Shown here piece by piece: positions 44,559 to 52,889 of a DNA stretch of 64,000 nt; the first letter of the stretch is position 1, and each line of letters starts with the position of its first letter. The notes under the pieces were generated by a model. That model was not told where the DNA came from and did not search any database. It was given only the letters and a program-made list of their open reading frames with translations. Source of the stretch: Streptococcus sp. 29892 (GTDB taxonomy: Bacteria > Bacillota > Bacilli > Lactobacillales > Streptococcaceae); the NCBI RefSeq assembly GCF_032594935.1, contig NZ_CP118734.1, positions 1 through 64,000 of the forward strand. Reading direction: 5' to 3'. The position numbers and the translations under genes are program-made.

Positions 44559-45653
44559 ATGAGTCGACGCATATCTGAACTTTTAACTAAGGATAAAATA
44601 AAAAATATTTTGAATTCACCGGTCACTGAAAAAGTTGATTTTCGAATTGTTACAGAGCAAGCAAGGTATCCGCTAAATAATGTAAAAGAAATTTTTCAAA
44701 GCTACGATTTAGATCCTTATTATCAAAGGAACATAGTTTGGCAAAACTCAAAAAAATCGAAGCTGATTGAGAGTTTTATAATTAATATTCCAATTCCCCC
44801 AATTTTTTTATTCGAATATGATTATGGTAAGTATGAAATTATGGACGGAAAACAAAGGATTTCAACAATTATTTCATTTTTAGACGATGAATTTGCATTG
44901 GAATCTTTAGAATTTTTTCCTGAGTATGAAGGGATGAACTTTTCAAATCTACCAGCAAAGATTCAAGATATGATAACAAGAAGATATATTTCTGCAACAA
45001 TATTATTAAGTGAATCAACAAAAAATGAATTTGAAAAAGAAAATATGAGGAGGTTGGTGTTTGAAAGATTAAATACTGGTGGGTTGGCATTAAATAAGCA
45101 AGAAGTCAGAAATGCATTGTATACTGGTAAATTTAATGACTTAATAAATCGTTTAGCTGAAAATAATATTTTTAAAGAACTTTGGTCGCCTGCTAAAAAA
45201 GATGAGTATAATAATAGGTTAGAATATTCAGAGAAAGTAGTGCGTTTCTTTGCATATTATAGCGCTATAAATGGGGATATTACTCCTATTTCAACATCAA
45301 AACTTTTAGATTTGTATATGGAAGCGTCAAAAGATTGGACAGAGAGTGATATTGCTGAATTGGAGGGATTTTTTATTGCAGTGATAACAACTGTAAAAAG
45401 ATTATTTGGTAAAAAAGCTTTTAGGTCAAGCCTAAGTAAAAGCAAAGCAGAGAATATGGTTTATGATAGTACAATGCTTTTTGTTGCAAATGAACTGGAT
45501 CGACTAGAAAGTTTAACTGATTTAATGTTTGAAGAAAGTAAATTTTCTATCATTAAAGAAAATAAAAGTGACTTTAATGGAAAGTATACTGCAATTTCAA
45601 ATGTAAAATCTAGAGTAGATATTTTTAAAAGGAAACTATTGGAAAATGAATAG
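44559..45653 (+). CDS. DUF262 (GmrS-N/ParB-like) domain protein, probable defence factor
   Basis: 364 residues. The DUF262 signature is clear: DPYYQRNIVW (Y54-R57) followed by the nucleotide/nuclease motif DGKQR at 96-100, and FERLNTGGLALNKQEVRNAL from residue 168. DUF262 is the N-terminal, ParB-like NTPase/nuclease fold of type IV enzymes such as GmrSD. The C-terminal HNH/DUF1524 nuclease of full GmrSD is absent. It is strongly AT-rich and overlaps the HEPN gene by eight bases, so the two work together. A role in phage defence is inferred. Confidence 0.85.
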   Translation: MSRRISELLTKDKIKNILNSPVTEKVDFRIVTEQARYPLNNVKEIFQSYDLDPYYQRNIVWQNSKKSKLIESFIINIPIPPIFLFEYDYGKYEIMDGKQRISTIISFLDDEFALESLEFFPEYEGMNFSNLPAKIQDMITRRYISATILLSESTKNEFEKENMRRLVFERLNTGGLALNKQEVRNALYTGKFNDLINRLAENNIFKELWSPAKKDEYNNRLEYSEKVVRFFAYYSAINGDITPISTSKLLDLYMEASKDWTESDIAELEGFFIAVITTVKRLFGKKAFRSSLSKSKAENMVYDSTMLFVANELDRLESLTDLMFEESKFSIIKENKSDFNGKYTAISNVKSRVDIFKRKLLENE

Positions 45654-46965
45654 TTTTATTCTGAGTGATAATTTTTATAAAAATATCAACAAATTCAAGG
45701 ATATTATTGATGTAGTTGAACAGAAGAATTTTATGAAGGAAACATTACAGAAAAATTTTATTATTACTCTATATACCATTTGGGAAAATGAATCAAAAGG
45801 TATTCTTTTTGATCATCTAGAAGAAAAGAATGAGATAATTTTTGATAATAATTTTACAGCTGTATTTTATAAGACGATTCTTAATTCAACACAATATGTC
45901 AAGGAAGAGTATATTAAATCTATTGCAAATTGGGAATTATCTATAAAAAAAGATTATTATTTTGCAAGTAATAATCTGTGGTTTAATAATTTAATTGATT
46001 TGATAAAAAGATTATATCCGGAAGCGTCAAGTGAGGAACTTCTTAAGATGAGTAACTCATTTCCCAGAATGCAACGATGCATCGAAAATTTGGAGACAGG
46101 TTCTATATCAAAATATTCAAAAAAAGGAGAGAATCCAAATGGTTTTGAAGGATATATAGATAGTTTAGTAGATAAGAGAAATAGTTTAGCACACTCAGGA
46201 GAATGTGATGAGTATGTAAATATAGATAATATGGGCGAATTTTTTCATTTTATTGATTGTGCGTTAATACTAGTTTATCAGTATCTCAATAATTTATACG
46301 TTAAAAGACTTATAAATGGTAAAATACTTGTTAAACTTAAAAATATTTATGAGATAGCTTTTCCAGAAGCAACTGCTAGAGTTGATTTTAATTCAGAACA
46401 AGTTGATTTCATGAACGAATATAAGATTCTAAAATCCAAATGGTTCATCAATAATAATGGTGAATACCCCATAGAGATACTTGAAATAAGAGATGAAGTA
46501 AGACAAACGATTTCAGAGTTGCCTTCAAATGGTCATGTTATTTTGAGAATAAAAAGCGAGAGCATTCAGTTTGAAGAAGAAAAGGAATACAATCTTTACA
46601 ATTTAAGTGGACATACTGATATTTCCAATGTATTTTTGGAGTCTGATTTTGAGAAAGATGGAATTATTGAGGTAAATTTCGACTTAAATCAGGTTAATCT
46701 TTGGAATAATAATACAAATGATGATTTTGCAAAGCATTGGTACATTGAACATGATGAGTTAATTTACCCAATAGAAATACTTGAAATAAGAAATGAAGAA
46801 AGCCAAACGATTTCAGAGTTACCTCCAAATGGTCATGTTACTTTGAAAATAAAAAGTGAGTATATAGATGTCAAAAGGAATAAGAAGTATAAGATTTTTA
46901 ATTTATACTATTTTGATAGATTAGAAAATATTCACACAGAAAAATCACTATTGTTTAAAATTTAG
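45646..46965 (+). CDS. HEPN-domain protein (MAE_28990/MAE_18760-like), probable RNase partner
   Basis: 439 residues. The N-terminal about 220 residues are helical and contain RNSLAH (R178-H183), the R-x4-H motif of HEPN ribonucleases, in the context [12 protein letters not shown]. The C-terminal part holds two beta-rich copies (about 271-322 and 371-422) exactly 100 residues apart, with shared [16 protein letters not shown] and NGHV segments. HEPN proteins of this group are known next to DUF262 proteins. AT-rich like its partner. The substrate is unknown. Confidence 0.8.
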
Positions 46966-47021: not shown

Positions 47022-48314
47022 ATGTTATCACGTTATTCCCGCCCTGAGATGGCGGCTATTTGGAGTGAAGAGAACAAGTACAAGGCTTGGTTGGAGGTGG
47101 AAATCCTCGCAGATGAGGCTTGGGCTGAGTTGGGTGAGATTCCCAAAGAAGATGTGGCCTTGATTCGTGAGAAGGCGACTTTTGACATCGACCGCATTTT
47201 AGAGATTGAAGAGGAAACCCGTCACGATGTGGTGGCTTTCACGCGTGCGGTTTCGGAAAGTCTTGGTGAGGAACGCAAGTGGGTTCACTATGGTTTGACT
47301 TCGACCGATGTGGTGGATACGGCTTACGGCTACCTCTACAAGCAGGCCAACGATATCATCCGTCGTGACCTTGAAAACTTCACCGATATCATCGCCGACA
47401 AGGCGCGTGAGCACAAATATACCATCATGATGGGTCGGACCCACGGTGTTCATGCGGAGCCAACGACCTTCGGTCTTAAATTGGCGACTTGGTATAGCGA
47501 AATGAAACGCAACATGGAGCGTTTTGATGTGGCAGCCAAGGGTGTTGAGGCTGGTAAAATTTCAGGTGCGGTTGGTAACTTTGCCAACATCCCTCCATTT
47601 GTGGAAGAGTATGTTTGTGGCAAATTGGGCATTCGTCCGCAGGAAATTTCGACCCAGGTCCTTCCTCGTGACCTCCACGCAGAATATTTCTCAGCCCTAG
47701 CCCTGATTGCAACGTCTATCGAGCGTATGGCGACAGAGATCCGTGGGCTACAAAAATCTGAACAACGCGAAGTCGAAGAGTATTTCGCCAAAGGCCAAAA
47801 AGGCAGCTCTGCTATGCCCCATAAACGCAACCCTATCGGCTCTGAAAACATGACCGGTCTGGCTCGTGTGGTGCGTGGTCACTTGGTGACGGCTTTTGAG
47901 AATGTGGCTCTCTGGCACGAACGCGATATTTCCCACTCGTCAGCAGAGCGGATTATCACGCCGGATACGACCATTCTCATCAACTATATGCTCAATCGTT
48001 TTGGCAATATTGTTAAGAATTTGACGGTCTTCCCTGAGAATATGAAACGCAATATGGAGTCGACTTTTGGCTTGATTTACAGTCAGCGTGTTATGCTCAA
48101 ATTGATTGAAAAAGGTATGACCCGTGAGGAAGCCTATGATTTGGTGCAACCAAAAACTGCGCAGTCATGGGATAATCAAGTGGACTTCAAGCCCCTTCTC
48201 GAAGCAGATGAGCGCGTGACAGCTAAACTCAGCCAGGAAGAAATCGATGAACTCTTCAACCCAGACTACTATGCGAAGCGGGTTGATGACATTTTTGAAC
48301 GACTTGGGTTATAA
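47022..48314 (+). CDS. purB: Adenylosuccinate lyase
   Basis: Cleaves SAICAR and adenylosuccinate to release fumarate. LTSTDVVDT and the signature loop [11 protein letters not shown] are present. 430 residues. GGAGTAGGAG lies before the ATG. It returns to the GC level of the other pur genes. Its promoter is not obvious; the 56-base gap before it is AT-rich. Confidence 0.98.
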
Positions 48315-48322
48315 AAAAATCA

Positions 48323-48352
48323 AAATTCTTTGGATTTTCCAGAGAATTTTTT
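48323..48352 (+). terminator. Terminator after purB
   Basis: AAATTCTTTGGA pairs with TCCAGAGAATTT, followed by T residues; the T run overlaps the next CiaR-type repeat. Confidence 0.8.
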
Positions 48353-48381
48353 AGTTTTCCTTAAGTTTGACGAGTTATACT
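48349..48381 (+). promoter_or_regulatory. CiaR-type promoter of small RNA copy 1
   Basis: TTTTAG-N5-CTTAAG (48349-48365) matches the CiaR direct repeat TTTAAG-N5-TTTAAG with one change per half. TATACT follows after exactly 10 bases, the spacing of CiaR-activated promoters. Confidence 0.7.
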
Positions 48382-48475
48382 TTATCCAAGCTAGAAATAG
48401 CGGATTTCCTTTTCACCTAAAGGTGTCCCTAGCTCTAAGTCGCAAGCGACAAGAGCTAGGTATCATATAATCTCC
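48349..48475 (+). repeat. 127-bp direct repeat, copy A (small-RNA gene with promoter)
   Basis: Identical to 49873-49999 except one T/C difference at 48358. The two copies flank the MerR gene. Downstream of the repeat the terminators differ. Confidence 0.95.
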
Positions 48476-48510
48476 AGAAAACAGTCAGCAAGAATTAGCT
48501 GACTGTTTTT
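48388..48510 (+). ncRNA. Probable csRNA (CiaR-dependent small RNA), copy 1
   Basis: About 123 nt from the expected start to the T run. It folds into GCTA-GAAA-TAGC, a CACCT/AGGTG hairpin and a longer CCTAGCTCT/AGAGCTAGG stem. It has CU-rich anti-Shine-Dalgarno stretches (TTTCCTTTTCACCT, AATCTCC), and ends at an AAACAGTCAGC/GCTGACTGTTT terminator (48479-48510). The first 127 bases of the locus (48349-48475) recur at 49873-49999 with one mismatch. Confidence 0.72.
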
Positions 48511-48531
48511 GTATAAAAAATCAAAAAATCC

Positions 48532-48562
48532 TTGACTCATCCCTAGGGGAATAGTGTATGCT
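48532..48562 (+). promoter_or_regulatory. MerR-type promoter with 19-bp spacer
   Basis: TTGACT (48532-48537) and TATGCT (48557-48562) are 19 bases apart, the overlong spacer of MerR-controlled promoters. A TCCCTAGGGGA dyad lies in the spacer. This implies autoregulation of the gene that follows. Confidence 0.8.
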
Positions 48563-48591
48563 AGGACTATCAAAACAGATGGAGGTTGTTT

Positions 48592-49860
48592 ATGCAGGTC
48601 AAAGATGTGGAGAAGTTGACAGGCTTGTCAACTAAGGCGATACGGCTGTATGAAGAAAAGGGCTTGATTGAAGTGGCGAGAAATCCGCTCAACGATTACC
48701 GTAATTATTCAGAGGAAAATGTACGTCAGCTTCGCTTGATTAAGTTGCTCCGCTATTTTGAGTTTTCCCTAGCAGAGATTACGGACCTCCTATCCTTGCC
48801 AGAGGAGGACTTGCAGTCAGCCTTGCGTGAGAAAAAGCGGGGAATCAACCAGCAAGCAGAAGAATTGAGAGACAAGGTTGATTTATTGGACCAGCTGGTC
48901 AGGGATTTGGGCAAGGAAGAGGATTGGTTGGAAGAAGCACAGGAATCCATTGCTTTTGTGGAAAGTGGTGAGTTCCAAGACTTCAAACAAGATTTAGAAG
49001 ATGCCTTGTTGCCAAGTATTTGGATGACTCTCTTGCAGACCTTGTCGTTATCAGGTCCAATCCTCTGGCTGTTTATCCGAATCCAAGAGGGTCGTCAGGA
49101 AAATCTTTTCCTATTAGCAGTGGTGTCCCTATTGGCAACCGCTTGGATAACGCTTCTCTGGCGAGACTACCTCGTAACCTGGTGGAAACATCGGGACAAG
49201 GTCCGCCAGAAGAATCGCAGTCAGGCCTGGTGGATTCCGATTGGTCTCATCTCCCTCGTAGGTGGGATTGCCTACTTTGTCCTTGTCGGCTGGTTGACTG
49301 AAAGATTTTTCCTACCAAGCGATTGGCTCTTCTATGAGTATTCGACTGGTCTGGGCAAGATTGCTATATTGTTTATCATGGCTTTTCTTGCTTTTCTTTT
49401 GGGCAAACTGGCGAGGCTGGTGAAATTATCTTGGAAATATGGCTTGGGTCTGGCAGGTTCTTGTATCCTATTGACCGCTCTGCTCATTTCTACCACAACA
49501 GCCGTGACCAAAGACCAGATTATCGACATCAATCTGCTGGCTCCGTCCAAGGAATATCTTTACAGCGATGTCAAGTCTGTCTGGACAGGCTTTGGGACCA
49601 AGCTAGTGACAGTGAACAGGTCTGAAAGGCAAGGGGAATTCAGCTATCAAATTCAACTGGATGGAAAAAAGATTGTGTTTATGCAACCAGCTGTTAATCA
49701 GAACTTGGTACCTGACGATACCTATATTGAGTTGGAGGAGTTTGATCGGCAGTTGATGAATCTGAAAATTCCCAAAGAAAGTTCAACAGAAGGTAGTCAG
49801 TACAATGAGTTAGATTCGCACTATCTAAAACGATTTTTACGGATTATTGAAAAGAAATAA
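48592..49860 (+). CDS. Membrane-anchored MerR-family regulator
   Basis: 422 residues. The N-terminal winged helix reads MQVKDVEKLTGLSTKAIRLY and is followed by the MerR dimerisation coiled coil (to about 120). The rest is unusual: about five hydrophobic segments between residues 140 and 300, then a hydrophilic C-terminal domain of about 110 residues probably outside the membrane. GGAGG at 48581-48585 supports the ATG at 48592. No transporter lies beside it. It probably senses a membrane or external signal; the target is likely itself. Confidence 0.85.
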   Translation: MQVKDVEKLTGLSTKAIRLYEEKGLIEVARNPLNDYRNYSEENVRQLRLIKLLRYFEFSLAEITDLLSLPEEDLQSALREKKRGINQQAEELRDKVDLLDQLVRDLGKEEDWLEEAQESIAFVESGEFQDFKQDLEDALLPSIWMTLLQTLSLSGPILWLFIRIQEGRQENLFLLAVVSLLATAWITLLWRDYLVTWWKHRDKVRQKNRSQAWWIPIGLISLVGGIAYFVLVGWLTERFFLPSDWLFYEYSTGLGKIAILFIMAFLAFLLGKLARLVKLSWKYGLGLAGSCILLTALLISTTTAVTKDQIIDINLLAPSKEYLYSDVKSVWTGFGTKLVTVNRSERQGEFSYQIQLDGKKIVFMQPAVNQNLVPDDTYIELEEFDRQLMNLKIPKESSTEGSQYNELDSHYLKRFLRIIEKK

Positions 49861-49872
49861 GCATAAATCCTG

Positions 49873-49905
49873 TTTTAGTTTCCCTTAAGTTTGACGAGTT
49901 ATACT
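49873..49905 (+). promoter_or_regulatory. CiaR-type promoter of small RNA copy 2
   Basis: TTTTAG-N5-CTTAAG (49873-49889), 10 bases, TATACT (49900-49905), as in copy 1. Confidence 0.7.
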
Positions 49906-49999
49906 TTATCCAAGCTAGAAATAGCGGATTTCCTTTTCACCTAAAGGTGTCCCTAGCTCTAAGTCGCAAGCGACAAGAGCTAGGTATCATATAATCTCC
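49873..49999 (+). repeat. 127-bp direct repeat, copy B
   Basis: Second copy of the small-RNA locus at 48349-48475; 126 of 127 bases identical. Confidence 0.95.
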
Positions 50000-50032
50000 T
50001 GGAAATACTGGACTCACTGAGTCTGGTATTTT
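49912..50032 (+). ncRNA. Probable csRNA (CiaR-dependent small RNA), copy 2
   Basis: Same body as copy 1, ending in a different hairpin (AATACTGGACTCA/TGAGTCTGGTATT with G-U pairs, 50004-50030) and T run. The segment AATCTCCT (49993-50000) is perfectly complementary to AGGAGATT at the comS ribosome binding site (52812-52819). Confidence 0.72.
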
Positions 50033-50037
50033 CATTT

Positions 50038-50048
50038 TGTGCTATAAT
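50038..50048 (+). promoter_or_regulatory. Extended -10 promoter of leaderless ruvB
   Basis: TGTGCTATAAT fits TnTGnTATAAT; the ATG at 50055 is six bases further on, at the expected transcript start. Confidence 0.75.
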
Positions 50049-50054
50049 GGTTTC

Positions 50055-51053
50055 ATGACTAGAATTTTAGATATGGAACAAATGCAGGATGAGGAGTACG
50101 TAGAACGTACCCTGCGTCCCCAGAAATTAAATGAATACATCGGTCAGGACAAGGTCAAGGACCAGCTCAAAATCTTTATCGAGGCAGCCAAGCTCCGTGA
50201 TGAAGCCTTGGACCATACCCTTCTGTTTGGCCCTCCGGGTCTGGGGAAGACCACTATGGCCTTTGTCATCGCCAATGAACTGGGCGTTAATATCAAGCAG
50301 ACCAGTGGTCCTGTTATTGAAAAAGCAGGTGACTTGGTGGCCCTTCTCAATGACTTGGAGCCTGGCGACGTCCTCTTTATTGATGAAATCCACCGTATGC
50401 CTATGGCGGTTGAGGAGATTCTCTATTCTGCAATGGAAGACTTCTACATCGACATCATGATTGGGTCTGGGGAGGCCAGTCGCTCTGTGCATTTGGAGTT
50501 ACCACCTTTTACCCTGATTGGAGCGACCACTCGTGCGGGTATGTTGTCCAATCCTCTGCGGGCCCGTTTTGGTATCACCGGTCATATGGAGTATTATGAA
50601 CTGGCTGATTTGACGGAGATTGTTGAGCGGACGGCGGATATCTTTGATATGGAGATTACCCATGAAGCCGCTATCGAGCTAGCTCGTCGTTCTCGTGGAA
50701 CCCCACGTATCGCCAACCGTCTGCTCAAGCGGGTGCGGGATTTCGCACAGATTATGGGCGACGGGCTGATTGATGACACCATTACGGACAGGGCCTTGAC
50801 TATGCTGGATGTGGACCGCGAGGGGCTGGACTACGTGGACCAGAAGATTCTCCGCACCATGATTGAGATGTACGGCGGCGGTCCTGTCGGCCTCAACACT
50901 CTGTCGGTCAATATTGCCGAGGAGCGTGAGACGGTGGAGGACATGTACGAACCTTACCTGATTCAGCAGGGCTTCCTCATGCGGACACGGACAGGGCGGG
51001 TTGCGACAGCTAAGGCCTACGAGCACTTGGGCTATCCCTATACGGAAAAATAA
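50055..51053 (+). CDS. ruvB: Holliday junction branch migration helicase RuvB
   Basis: AAA+ motor that drives branch migration with RuvA. Walker A GPPGLGKT at residues 59-66, FIDEIHRM Walker B, GATTRAG sensor, and a C-terminal winged helix. 332 residues from the ATG at 50055. No Shine-Dalgarno is visible, in line with a leaderless mRNA. ruvA is about 8 kb downstream, the usual split arrangement in streptococci. Confidence 0.96.
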
Positions 51054-51835: not shown

Positions 51836-52750
51836 ATGAACGATAAAGGATTTGGGCAGCGCGTGCGTCAGTTGCGAGAAACTGCTAGTCTGACACGTGA
51901 ACAGTTTTGCGATGACGAACTTGAGCTCTCCGTACGCCAATTAACCCGTATCGAAGCAGGCACTTCCAAGCCAACTTTGTCAAAGATTCAATATATTGCA
52001 AATCGCTTAGGTATGAGTCTTTATGAACTTATGCCTGACTATGTGAAACTCCCAAATAGGTATTTGAAGCTTAAGTTTGAAGTTCTTCGCACACCGACTT
52101 ATGAAAATGAAGAATTGATGGATAAGCGCAATCAATTGATGGAAGAAATTTATGATAATTATTACGATGACTTGCCAGAGGAAGAACAAGTGGCTATTGA
52201 TGCATTTCAGTCTTTTGTTGATATTTATGAAACAAAATCAGTTCATTTTGGCAAAGAGATCTTAGATGATTATTTTGAACAGGTTCATCGTAAGGATAAG
52301 TTCACAGTCAATGATTTATTGATTATTCGGTTGTACTTAGAACACTTGCAGGATGAGGATGTACACTCGCAAAGTTTTCAACACTTTTTAGATATTACCC
52401 GACATTTTCCAACACAGATGGAGGTTATCGATTCAAATGAACTTTTTATTTTGCGAGATGTAATGCTGGCCGCAATCGGGGTCCTTGGAAGCAAGCAGAG
52501 TTTTGACTACATTCCCCCTATTTTTGCTACTTTGGACCAGTTAATGGTTCAAACTCATGACTTTCAGAAGAAACCTATTTTGAATCTGCTAAAGTGGAAG
52601 TATGAGCTATATGTTAATGATGACAAACAAGCCGCTCAACAGTTGTATCAAGAAGCTGTTATGTTTGCGAAACTTATTGGGGATAATCATTTGGTGGCGA
52701 AGTTGGAGAAGGCTTGGGTAGAAGAATACAATGGAATAGCTAAAAAATAA
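51836..52750 (+). CDS. comR: Competence regulator ComR (Rgg family)
   Basis: 304 residues: an XRE-type DNA-binding domain (about 6-62, RVRQLRETASLTREQFCDDE) followed by a TPR-like helical peptide-binding domain. Rgg proteins bind imported short peptides. A ComR-box and a small peptide gene with a Trp-rich C-terminus lie directly downstream, which identifies it as ComR rather than another Rgg. ComR bound to its pheromone activates comS and comX. Its own ribosome site is GAGGTGAG. Confidence 0.9.
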   Translation: MNDKGFGQRVRQLRETASLTREQFCDDELELSVRQLTRIEAGTSKPTLSKIQYIANRLGMSLYELMPDYVKLPNRYLKLKFEVLRTPTYENEELMDKRNQLMEEIYDNYYDDLPEEEQVAIDAFQSFVDIYETKSVHFGKEILDDYFEQVHRKDKFTVNDLLIIRLYLEHLQDEDVHSQSFQHFLDITRHFPTQMEVIDSNELFILRDVMLAAIGVLGSKQSFDYIPPIFATLDQLMVQTHDFQKKPILNLLKWKYELYVNDDKQAAQQLYQEAVMFAKLIGDNHLVAKLEKAWVEEYNGIAKK

Positions 52751-52753
52751 TGT

Positions 52754-52765
52754 GACATTTTTGTC
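52754..52765 (+). promoter_or_regulatory. ComR box of comS
   Basis: GACA-TTTT-TGTC perfect dyad, followed by a -10 TATTAT at 52790-52795. This is the ComR-box core and spacing pattern of streptococcal comS/comX promoters. Confidence 0.85.
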
Positions 52766-52826
52766 CTGTTGAAATTATTCTCCTTTCTGTATTATAGATG
52801 TATAAAGTGAAAGGAGATTCTAAATT

Positions 52827-52889
52827 ATGAATTTTATTAAGGTATTGACTATTTTTGGGGCAGACTGGGGCTGGTGGTGGAAAGGTTAA
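52827..52889 (+). CDS. comS: Competence pheromone precursor ComS (20 aa)
   Basis: ATG at 52827 behind AAAGGAG opens MNFIKVLTIFGADWGWWWKG and a TAA stop. The hydrophobic N-terminus and Trp-rich C-terminus match precursors of SigX-inducing peptides; the mature pheromone is probably the last 7-9 residues, after cleavage on export. Placed between the ComR box and a dedicated terminator, right after comR. The C-terminal sequence differs from the GNWGTWVEE peptide I recall for other S. suis, so it likely represents another pherotype. Confidence 0.85.
   Translation: MNFIKVLTIFGADWGWWWKG

Follow-up and report, generated by a model that had tools for sequence, protein, structure and literature searches.

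Two near-identical predicted csRNA genes with CiaR-type promoters flank a merR gene in Streptococcus sp. 29892 and show a modular make-up among relatives

Two near-identical blocks, one on either side of a MerR-family regulator gene, lie within the 64,000 nucleotides analyzed here (positions 1-64000, referred to as the window) of the 2.06-Mb single-contig, S. suis-type genome of Streptococcus sp. 29892. With a probability of roughly 85%, we read each block as a CiaR-activated promoter followed by an untranslated RNA of 123-127 nt and its own terminator, and the pair as old, separate mosaic loci that were subject to conversion here and whose recombination removed merR in some relatives. On the sequence level, both blocks are supported as genes of csRNAs (CiaR-dependent small RNAs, a stress-response family), a kind already known, the ruvB-side copy being the positional counterpart of csRNA26 predicted in 2010. 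The modular make-up, the probable gene conversion, and the proposed merR deletion represent the new part, for which the consulted portions of the searched literature contain no earlier description.

The repeat search returned one such direct repeat (133 nt, 98%; 48349-48481 and 49873-50005). The original prediction of a 127-bp block occurring twice in direct orientation with one mismatch was borne out by base-by-base comparison, 48349-48475 and 49873-49999 differing only at 48358 (T/C). The twin blocks, 1524 bp apart and equally oriented, enclose the MerR-family gene (421 aa, 48595-49860, + strand; Pfam PF13411, 4.1e-14). On the left they are bordered by a gene at 47022-48314 (+), which we take from sequence knowledge to be purB and which adjoins the csRNA in four merR-less relatives, and on the right by a gene at 50055-51053 (+), presumably ruvB judging from sequence knowledge, the original prediction, and the flanks of relatives. 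Beyond the 127-bp blocks similarity drops off abruptly on either side, and the repeat is not a product of chance. Many copies across the genome, as of an ordinary mobile repeat, had been named as an outcome that would refute the original prediction; at E 1e-3 the own-genome copies consisted of the two twins and three shorter matches, located in two other csRNA-like genes and one csRNA remnant. The twin blocks are not a dispersed mobile repeat. As a separate observation, the stretch 44559-46965 between a purK-like gene and purB encodes a GmrSD/DUF262-type protein (PADLOC NsnA 1.3e-60, PD-T4-2_A 7.6e-43) and, following it, a protein of 439 aa whose HEPN match stays below threshold (27.2 bits, cut-off 28.4) and which has no PADLOC match, the two possibly constituting a phage-defence pair.

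In the consulted sections of Marx et al. 2010 (PMC3091779), the csRNA search rule demands TTTAAG-N5-TTTAAG with at most one mismatch per half and the G intact, followed at a distance of ten bases by a -10 element that deviates at no more than two positions, and termination within 250 bases; the box positions noted there as variable are the first A (first half) and the first T (second half). Both copies carry TTTTAG-N5-CTTAAG, N10, and TATACT as originally described, the upstream copy (U) at 48349-48354, 48360-48365, and 48376-48381, and the downstream copy (D) within 49873-49905, each on the + strand, intergenic, and with a predicted terminator within 250 bases. A genome-wide promoter pattern, fitted to the published consensus and the twin copies and chosen after the copies had been seen, gave six matches in 2.06 Mb and none when reversed. 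Five of these are csRNA-like genes. Besides the twins, they comprise a short gene (near 254.8 kb) upstream of a presumed mevalonate-kinase-like gene, a minimal gene lacking the 5' hairpin (876.6 kb), and a gene beside a presumed valS-like gene (1565.4 kb), both neighbours being named from sequence knowledge. The sixth match precedes a 148-codon secreted-protein-like frame followed by ciaR, and this recovery of the regulator's own operon provides good internal support for the pattern. The CiaR recognition helix VVEVYVSKVRKKL encoded in this genome (L189) equals the pneumococcal helix. With the 2010 rule applying to both copies, a ciaR gene in the genome, and an existing csRNA prediction at the S. 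suis ruvB locus, the initial csRNA assignment holds up on the sequence level. Independently of the twins, the CiaR box ahead of the small secreted-protein frame and ciaR (L042; genome 1172740-1172771, minus strand) suggests that this operon is possibly autoregulated.

By the published rule, which sets the transcript start seven bases after the -10 element, the predicted RNAs start at 48388 and 49912 and have lengths of 123 nt (48388-48510, +) and at most 127 nt (49912-50038, +), in agreement with the approximately 120 nt anticipated. Their minimum-free-energy folds (-47.6 and -48.2 kcal/mol; z-scores against shuffles of -7.0 and -6.8) show four stem-loops counting the terminator, in place of the three hairpins proposed earlier. 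Along copy U, the 5' hairpin GCUAGAAAUAGC (48390-48401), found in 67 of 81 distinct related csRNA sequences, is followed by the 49-nt module A with a small and a compound hairpin (48414-48462), the anti-translation-start core UCAUAUAAUCUCC (48463-48475), and a predicted terminator of the U type (48476-48510). The corresponding features of copy D are module A at 49938-49986, the core at 49987-49999, whose fold was computed on copy U with its identical letters, and a predicted terminator of the D type at 50000-50038, which is kept beside ruvB in relatives. As in the original prediction, the terminators are separate, each copy ending in its own predicted hairpin with a sequence differing between the two.

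Since each block is located directly upstream of merR or ruvB in the same orientation and read-through is possible, the blocks could also be 5' leader or attenuator elements of these genes instead of free sRNAs. We regard this as highly improbable, the least likely of the explanations weighed here: each block ends in a predicted terminator, both genes have sites of their own, and the same RNA type occurs beside other genes, e.g., the mevalonate-kinase-like and valS-like ones. The site of merR at 48532-48562 (+) is promoter-like (TTGACT-N19-TATGCT with a CCCTAGGGG dyad), its 19-bp spacer being what we take to be a MerR-type motif, while ruvB has a TGCTATAAT site at the D terminator end.

Read as free small RNAs, both transcripts would be made when CiaRH is active and CiaR binds the repeat. 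Their open CAUAUAAUCUCC core, combining anti-start codon and anti-Shine-Dalgarno, would then pair in trans with mRNA start regions and block translation, and the sibling csRNAs may act additively, as reported for pneumococcus in the available part of PMC4507080. In the predicted fold this core is mostly unpaired (unpaired probability at least 0.8) and offers both complementary stretches. The complement of the 18-nt CTTTTTCATATAATCTCC is GGAG-ATTAT-ATG-AAA-AAG, a complete start region, and this fits the anti-start-region model printed for csRNAs in the consulted sections of PMC3091779. Half-box, -10 element, and the exact CTTTTTCATATAATCTCC occur together in 31 of 284 genus genomes, the reversed pattern in 0 of 284. 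In the short form of the RNA, UUUUUCAUAUAAUCUCC continues the core and could cover starts of the AUG-AAA-AA kind; in the A form, GGUAUC stands in place of UUUUUCAUAUAAUCUCC and there is a second CU-rich stretch. The seed of the original prediction corresponds to the constant CAUAUAAUCUCC core, and the middle of the RNA is an optional inserted module.

In the search for targets, perfect complements of CATATAATCTCC were found at six places in the genome, the five csRNA genes and one remnant, and one-mismatch complements of the core numbered nine versus seven for the reversed control, showing no target enrichment in the own genome. A 16-nt complement with at most three mismatches was found at 77 places (six of them csRNA loci) versus 20 in the control, which is not evidence of targeting because start regions favour such letters. 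Full-length duplex energies were discarded because they ignore internal structure. A lipoprotein gene (1101714-1102733) pairs with the csRNA over 16 nt, one G-U counted. Three close orthologues (G057, G257, G258) retain the start region of this gene, the G260 orthologue (80% identical) has lost it, and this candidate was not relied on. The competence pheromone gene comS (52827) appeared attractive because pneumococcal csRNAs exert additive control on comC (PMC4507080, in the portion available) and because of its location 2.8 kb downstream of copy D. The A-form linker, itself largely paired in the predicted fold, pairs with the comS start region at -16.6 kcal/mol and ranks 2/52, the two core segments 14/52 and 13/52, among start regions taken from a crude window gene list; 1/1000 shuffled linkers and 2/1000 shuffled start regions pair equally well. 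With own linker and own comS, four other genomes gave -11.1, -3.2, -3.2, and -4.8. Since the pairing is not conserved in these genomes, comS was set aside as a conserved target and stays a guess. The region itself (51836-52889) contains a comR-like gene and, preceded by a ComR box, a comS-like frame of 20 codons (MNFIKVLTIFGADWGWWWKG). The ComS-like peptide encoded here differs from the others recovered (22 of 30 loci gave one, this included), the nearest being that of G261.

In respect to known csRNAs, the closest reference is csRNA26 of S. suis 05ZYH33 (52590-52761, 172 nt), predicted by Marx et al. 2010 (PMC3091779) in the part of the paper at hand; the accessible part of a 2021 review lists S. 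suis csRNAs as not confirmed. csRNA26 occupies the same position before ruvB as copy D, and the ruvB-side gene of genome G246, starting at 52588 and extending 172 nt to the first and 178 nt to the last of the terminator Us, matches it. This matching locus shares promoter type, 5' hairpin, and terminator type with the window copies. In contrast, the G246 allele combines module B with a truncated module A and reads UAUAUAAUCUCC where the window copies have CAUAUAAUCUCC; the latter are without B, have the full A, and measure 123/127 nt. Compared by eye with this allele, the twins fall short of csRNA26-type likeness (at least 80% identity, indels below 3 nt), as B is missing, A differs, and 123/127 nt stand against 172 nt. 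Furthermore, the consulted sections of PMC3091779 place one csRNA gene at the S. suis ruvB locus, compared with two here.

Pneumococcal csRNA1-5 (CcnA-E) resemble the twins in the CiaR box spacing of 5, the distance of 10 to the -10 element, the anti-start-region stretch, and the existence of several siblings, some near ruvB. Unlike these, the window copies miss the Rfam csRNA threshold, are without the nonamer, and have an extra structured module. The covariance search with known csRNA models, suggested as a check at the outset, brought no support: the Rfam csRNA model matched neither within 48250-50150 (up to E 1) nor, at gathering score, anywhere in the window. The gathering score of RF02379 csRNA is missed by the twins, and a relative in L051 scores 32.2 versus 57. 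An Rfam Yfr1 match (E 0.77) inside ruvB on the other strand was taken as chance. With four exceptions, the csRNAs of Marx et al. contain the nonamer [A/C]UCCUAAA[A/C], which is reported missing in all S. suis predictions, according to the available text (PMC3091779). It is absent from the twins as well, the nearest sequence being CACCUAAAG inside module A, although this test is not exclusive. Among other csRNAs with the same core, two do contain the UCCUAAA nonamer that S. suis is said to lack (L050 at 6827, from S. suis HN129, and L122, from G133).

Comparison across relatives showed that the csRNA genes here are mosaics, in which a constant 5' hairpin and anti-start core are joined by optional folded modules A and B; modules are present or absent at the same locus among relatives, and the terminator is kept per locus. 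The twin RNAs correspond to the short type with the 49-nt module A inserted in the core between CTTTT and TCATATAATCTCC, and module A of the U locus is missing at the same locus in G262 and G265. Module B (~65 nt), found in other genomes, is located between 5' hairpin and core. For each module the predicted fold is a compound hairpin interrupted by a small, A-rich internal loop. For module A, covariation is weak: among 11 aligned variants, two pairs have changed on both sides, each in a single sequence; three sequences break one of these two pairs, and one sequence breaks another pair. The 81 distinct csRNA sequences fall into hairpin only (35), hairpin+A (15), hairpin+B (9), hairpin+B+A (8), no hairpin (11), nonamer (2), and nonamer+B (1), in a non-random set that was recovered by pattern from loci gathered by searches; the G246 allele, whose core is changed, is not among them. 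Modules A and B would have been swapped between csRNA loci by recombination, with promoter type, 5' hairpin, and core staying constant.

This modularity raises the question of small mobile or BOX-like elements with a chance promoter, since S. suis BOX-type repeats have interchangeable modules (PMC3049150, in the part available) and, in an informal comparison, such building blocks are similar to modules A and B in size and fold. The likeness to the S. suis BOX elements of Croucher et al. 2011 lies, as far as the accessible description goes, in modular short repeats with variable inner modules. Those are described there as dispersed repeats, while modules A and B sit in csRNA genes or remnants wherever resolved, a context that argues against BOX elements. 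The twin RNA body matches 30 of 284 genomes at E 1e-3; weak body matches in eight genomes (G028, G069, G092, G095, G209, G222, G230, G279) came without a csRNA by pattern in the fetched locus. Strong module-A places amount to 33 in 20 genomes (E <=1.5e-24), and a CiaR-type promoter precedes 29 of these 33, with an imperfect box in two (G257, G050); no promoter was recognized by pattern at the remaining four (G000, G251, G253, G262). Module B matches 19 of 284 genomes. Of 14 further fetched stretches, from genomes other than G151 and G176, 10 could be resolved, the remainder being four distant ones from G164, G217, and G033, and a CiaR-type promoter was present at 10/10. At E 1e-3 the own genome has module A only in csRNA genes and one remnant, and module B was not found there. 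Taken together, promoter association and confinement leave mobile elements a very unlikely explanation, and we retain the reading as sRNA genes.

Several module-related structures were noted along the way. A csRNA remnant with module A and no recognisable promoter (L006 1960-2065, genome ~254960-255065), one of the four such module-A places named above, lies directly behind the complete short csRNA gene. L226 has two module-B copies ~230 bp apart, the inner palindrome of one being inverted relative to the other. A hairpin-rich stretch 75-77% like module A was seen in other genus genomes (L030, L031, L033, L035-L037, and L032, around 1500), after an apparent dnaK 3' end in L033 and L037 and as two tandem units in L032. 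It had no Rfam match in the four loci scanned (L030, L032, L033, L036) and is possibly an undescribed structured element.

The history of the pair was approached through merR. MerR homologues at E 1e-30 are present in 21 of 284 genomes, and 20 of the 21 loci were read with 1.5-kb flanks, csRNAs being called by pattern; from a 62-locus set, only ten Streptococcus loci were used. A csRNA downstream of merR (D) was found in 16/20 loci (A 7, short 3, B 3, B+A 3), one upstream (U) in addition in seven genomes (A 3, short 2, B+A 2), and none within reach by pattern at 4/20. Within these seven genomes U terminators differ from each other by at most 4 mismatches and 6 gap columns and D terminators by at most 4 and 0, compared with 5-13 mismatches and 12-24 gap columns between U and D of one genome. 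U and D bodies of the seven often differ by whole modules. Here, they differ by one base; G063 has a D body identical to the one here, and the U locus of G262 shares the base of U at 48358. An additional upstream copy, ~2 kb distant, was seen in G063, with other sequence in place of its terminator.

As the original prediction held, the bodies are near-identical and the terminators differ; its explanation by duplication is fitted less well than gene conversion between older separate loci. The two loci, U between purB and merR and D between merR and ruvB, would be old, and their bodies have probably been homogenised in this genome. Local gene conversion is preferred to recent duplication because relatives hold both loci with different bodies and locus-specific terminators. 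In the simplest account, D would have donated to U a tract beginning after 48358 and reaching no further than 48475, at most ~117 bp in length. The competing view of a recent tandem duplication of a csRNA-merR unit, with single-copy loci being ancestral, can draw on merR-less single-csRNA loci with these outer flanks in five genomes. It is nevertheless unlikely, though the strongest of the alternatives, as U and D terminators are distinct and each conserved across relatives, the D body of G063 equals D here while U loci elsewhere carry other bodies, and in the single loci the left flank of U is combined with the right flank of D, the arrangement that deletion predicts. In addition, G252 encodes a merR homologue of 54% identity with a csRNA downstream, suggesting an old association; its right flank is not the usual ruvB start.

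The five genomes in question (G249, G253, G257, G258, G259) have a single csRNA with U left flank, D terminator, and ruvB on the right, and no MerR match at 1e-30. In four of the five, purB and ruvB are both on the fetched stretch; the 1.65 kb read upstream in G253 did not reveal purB. A single csRNA with the outer flanks and without merR is the expected remnant of a crossover between twins. We infer that the twin pair may act as a direct repeat and that its recombination deleted merR in these five relatives. G246 and G050 are also without merR, and with their other left flanks they are not explained by twin crossover.

More tentatively, and with a greater chance of being wrong than right, csRNAs of the S. 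suis group might form a cassette system, in which self-folding modules are gained, lost, and copied between loci by recombination; the seed context would thereby be moved and CiaR control rewired post-transcriptionally without new promoters, with twins deleting a neighbouring regulator gene. For the csRNAs of S. suis, this analysis provides predicted start sites and sizes together with a map of the modules in relatives. Short, A, B, and A+B forms occur naturally at one locus under one promoter type and with one terminator type; these alleles would let the effect of a module on an sRNA be measured directly, and the findings suggest that sibling sRNA genes serve as recombination sites shaping gene content.
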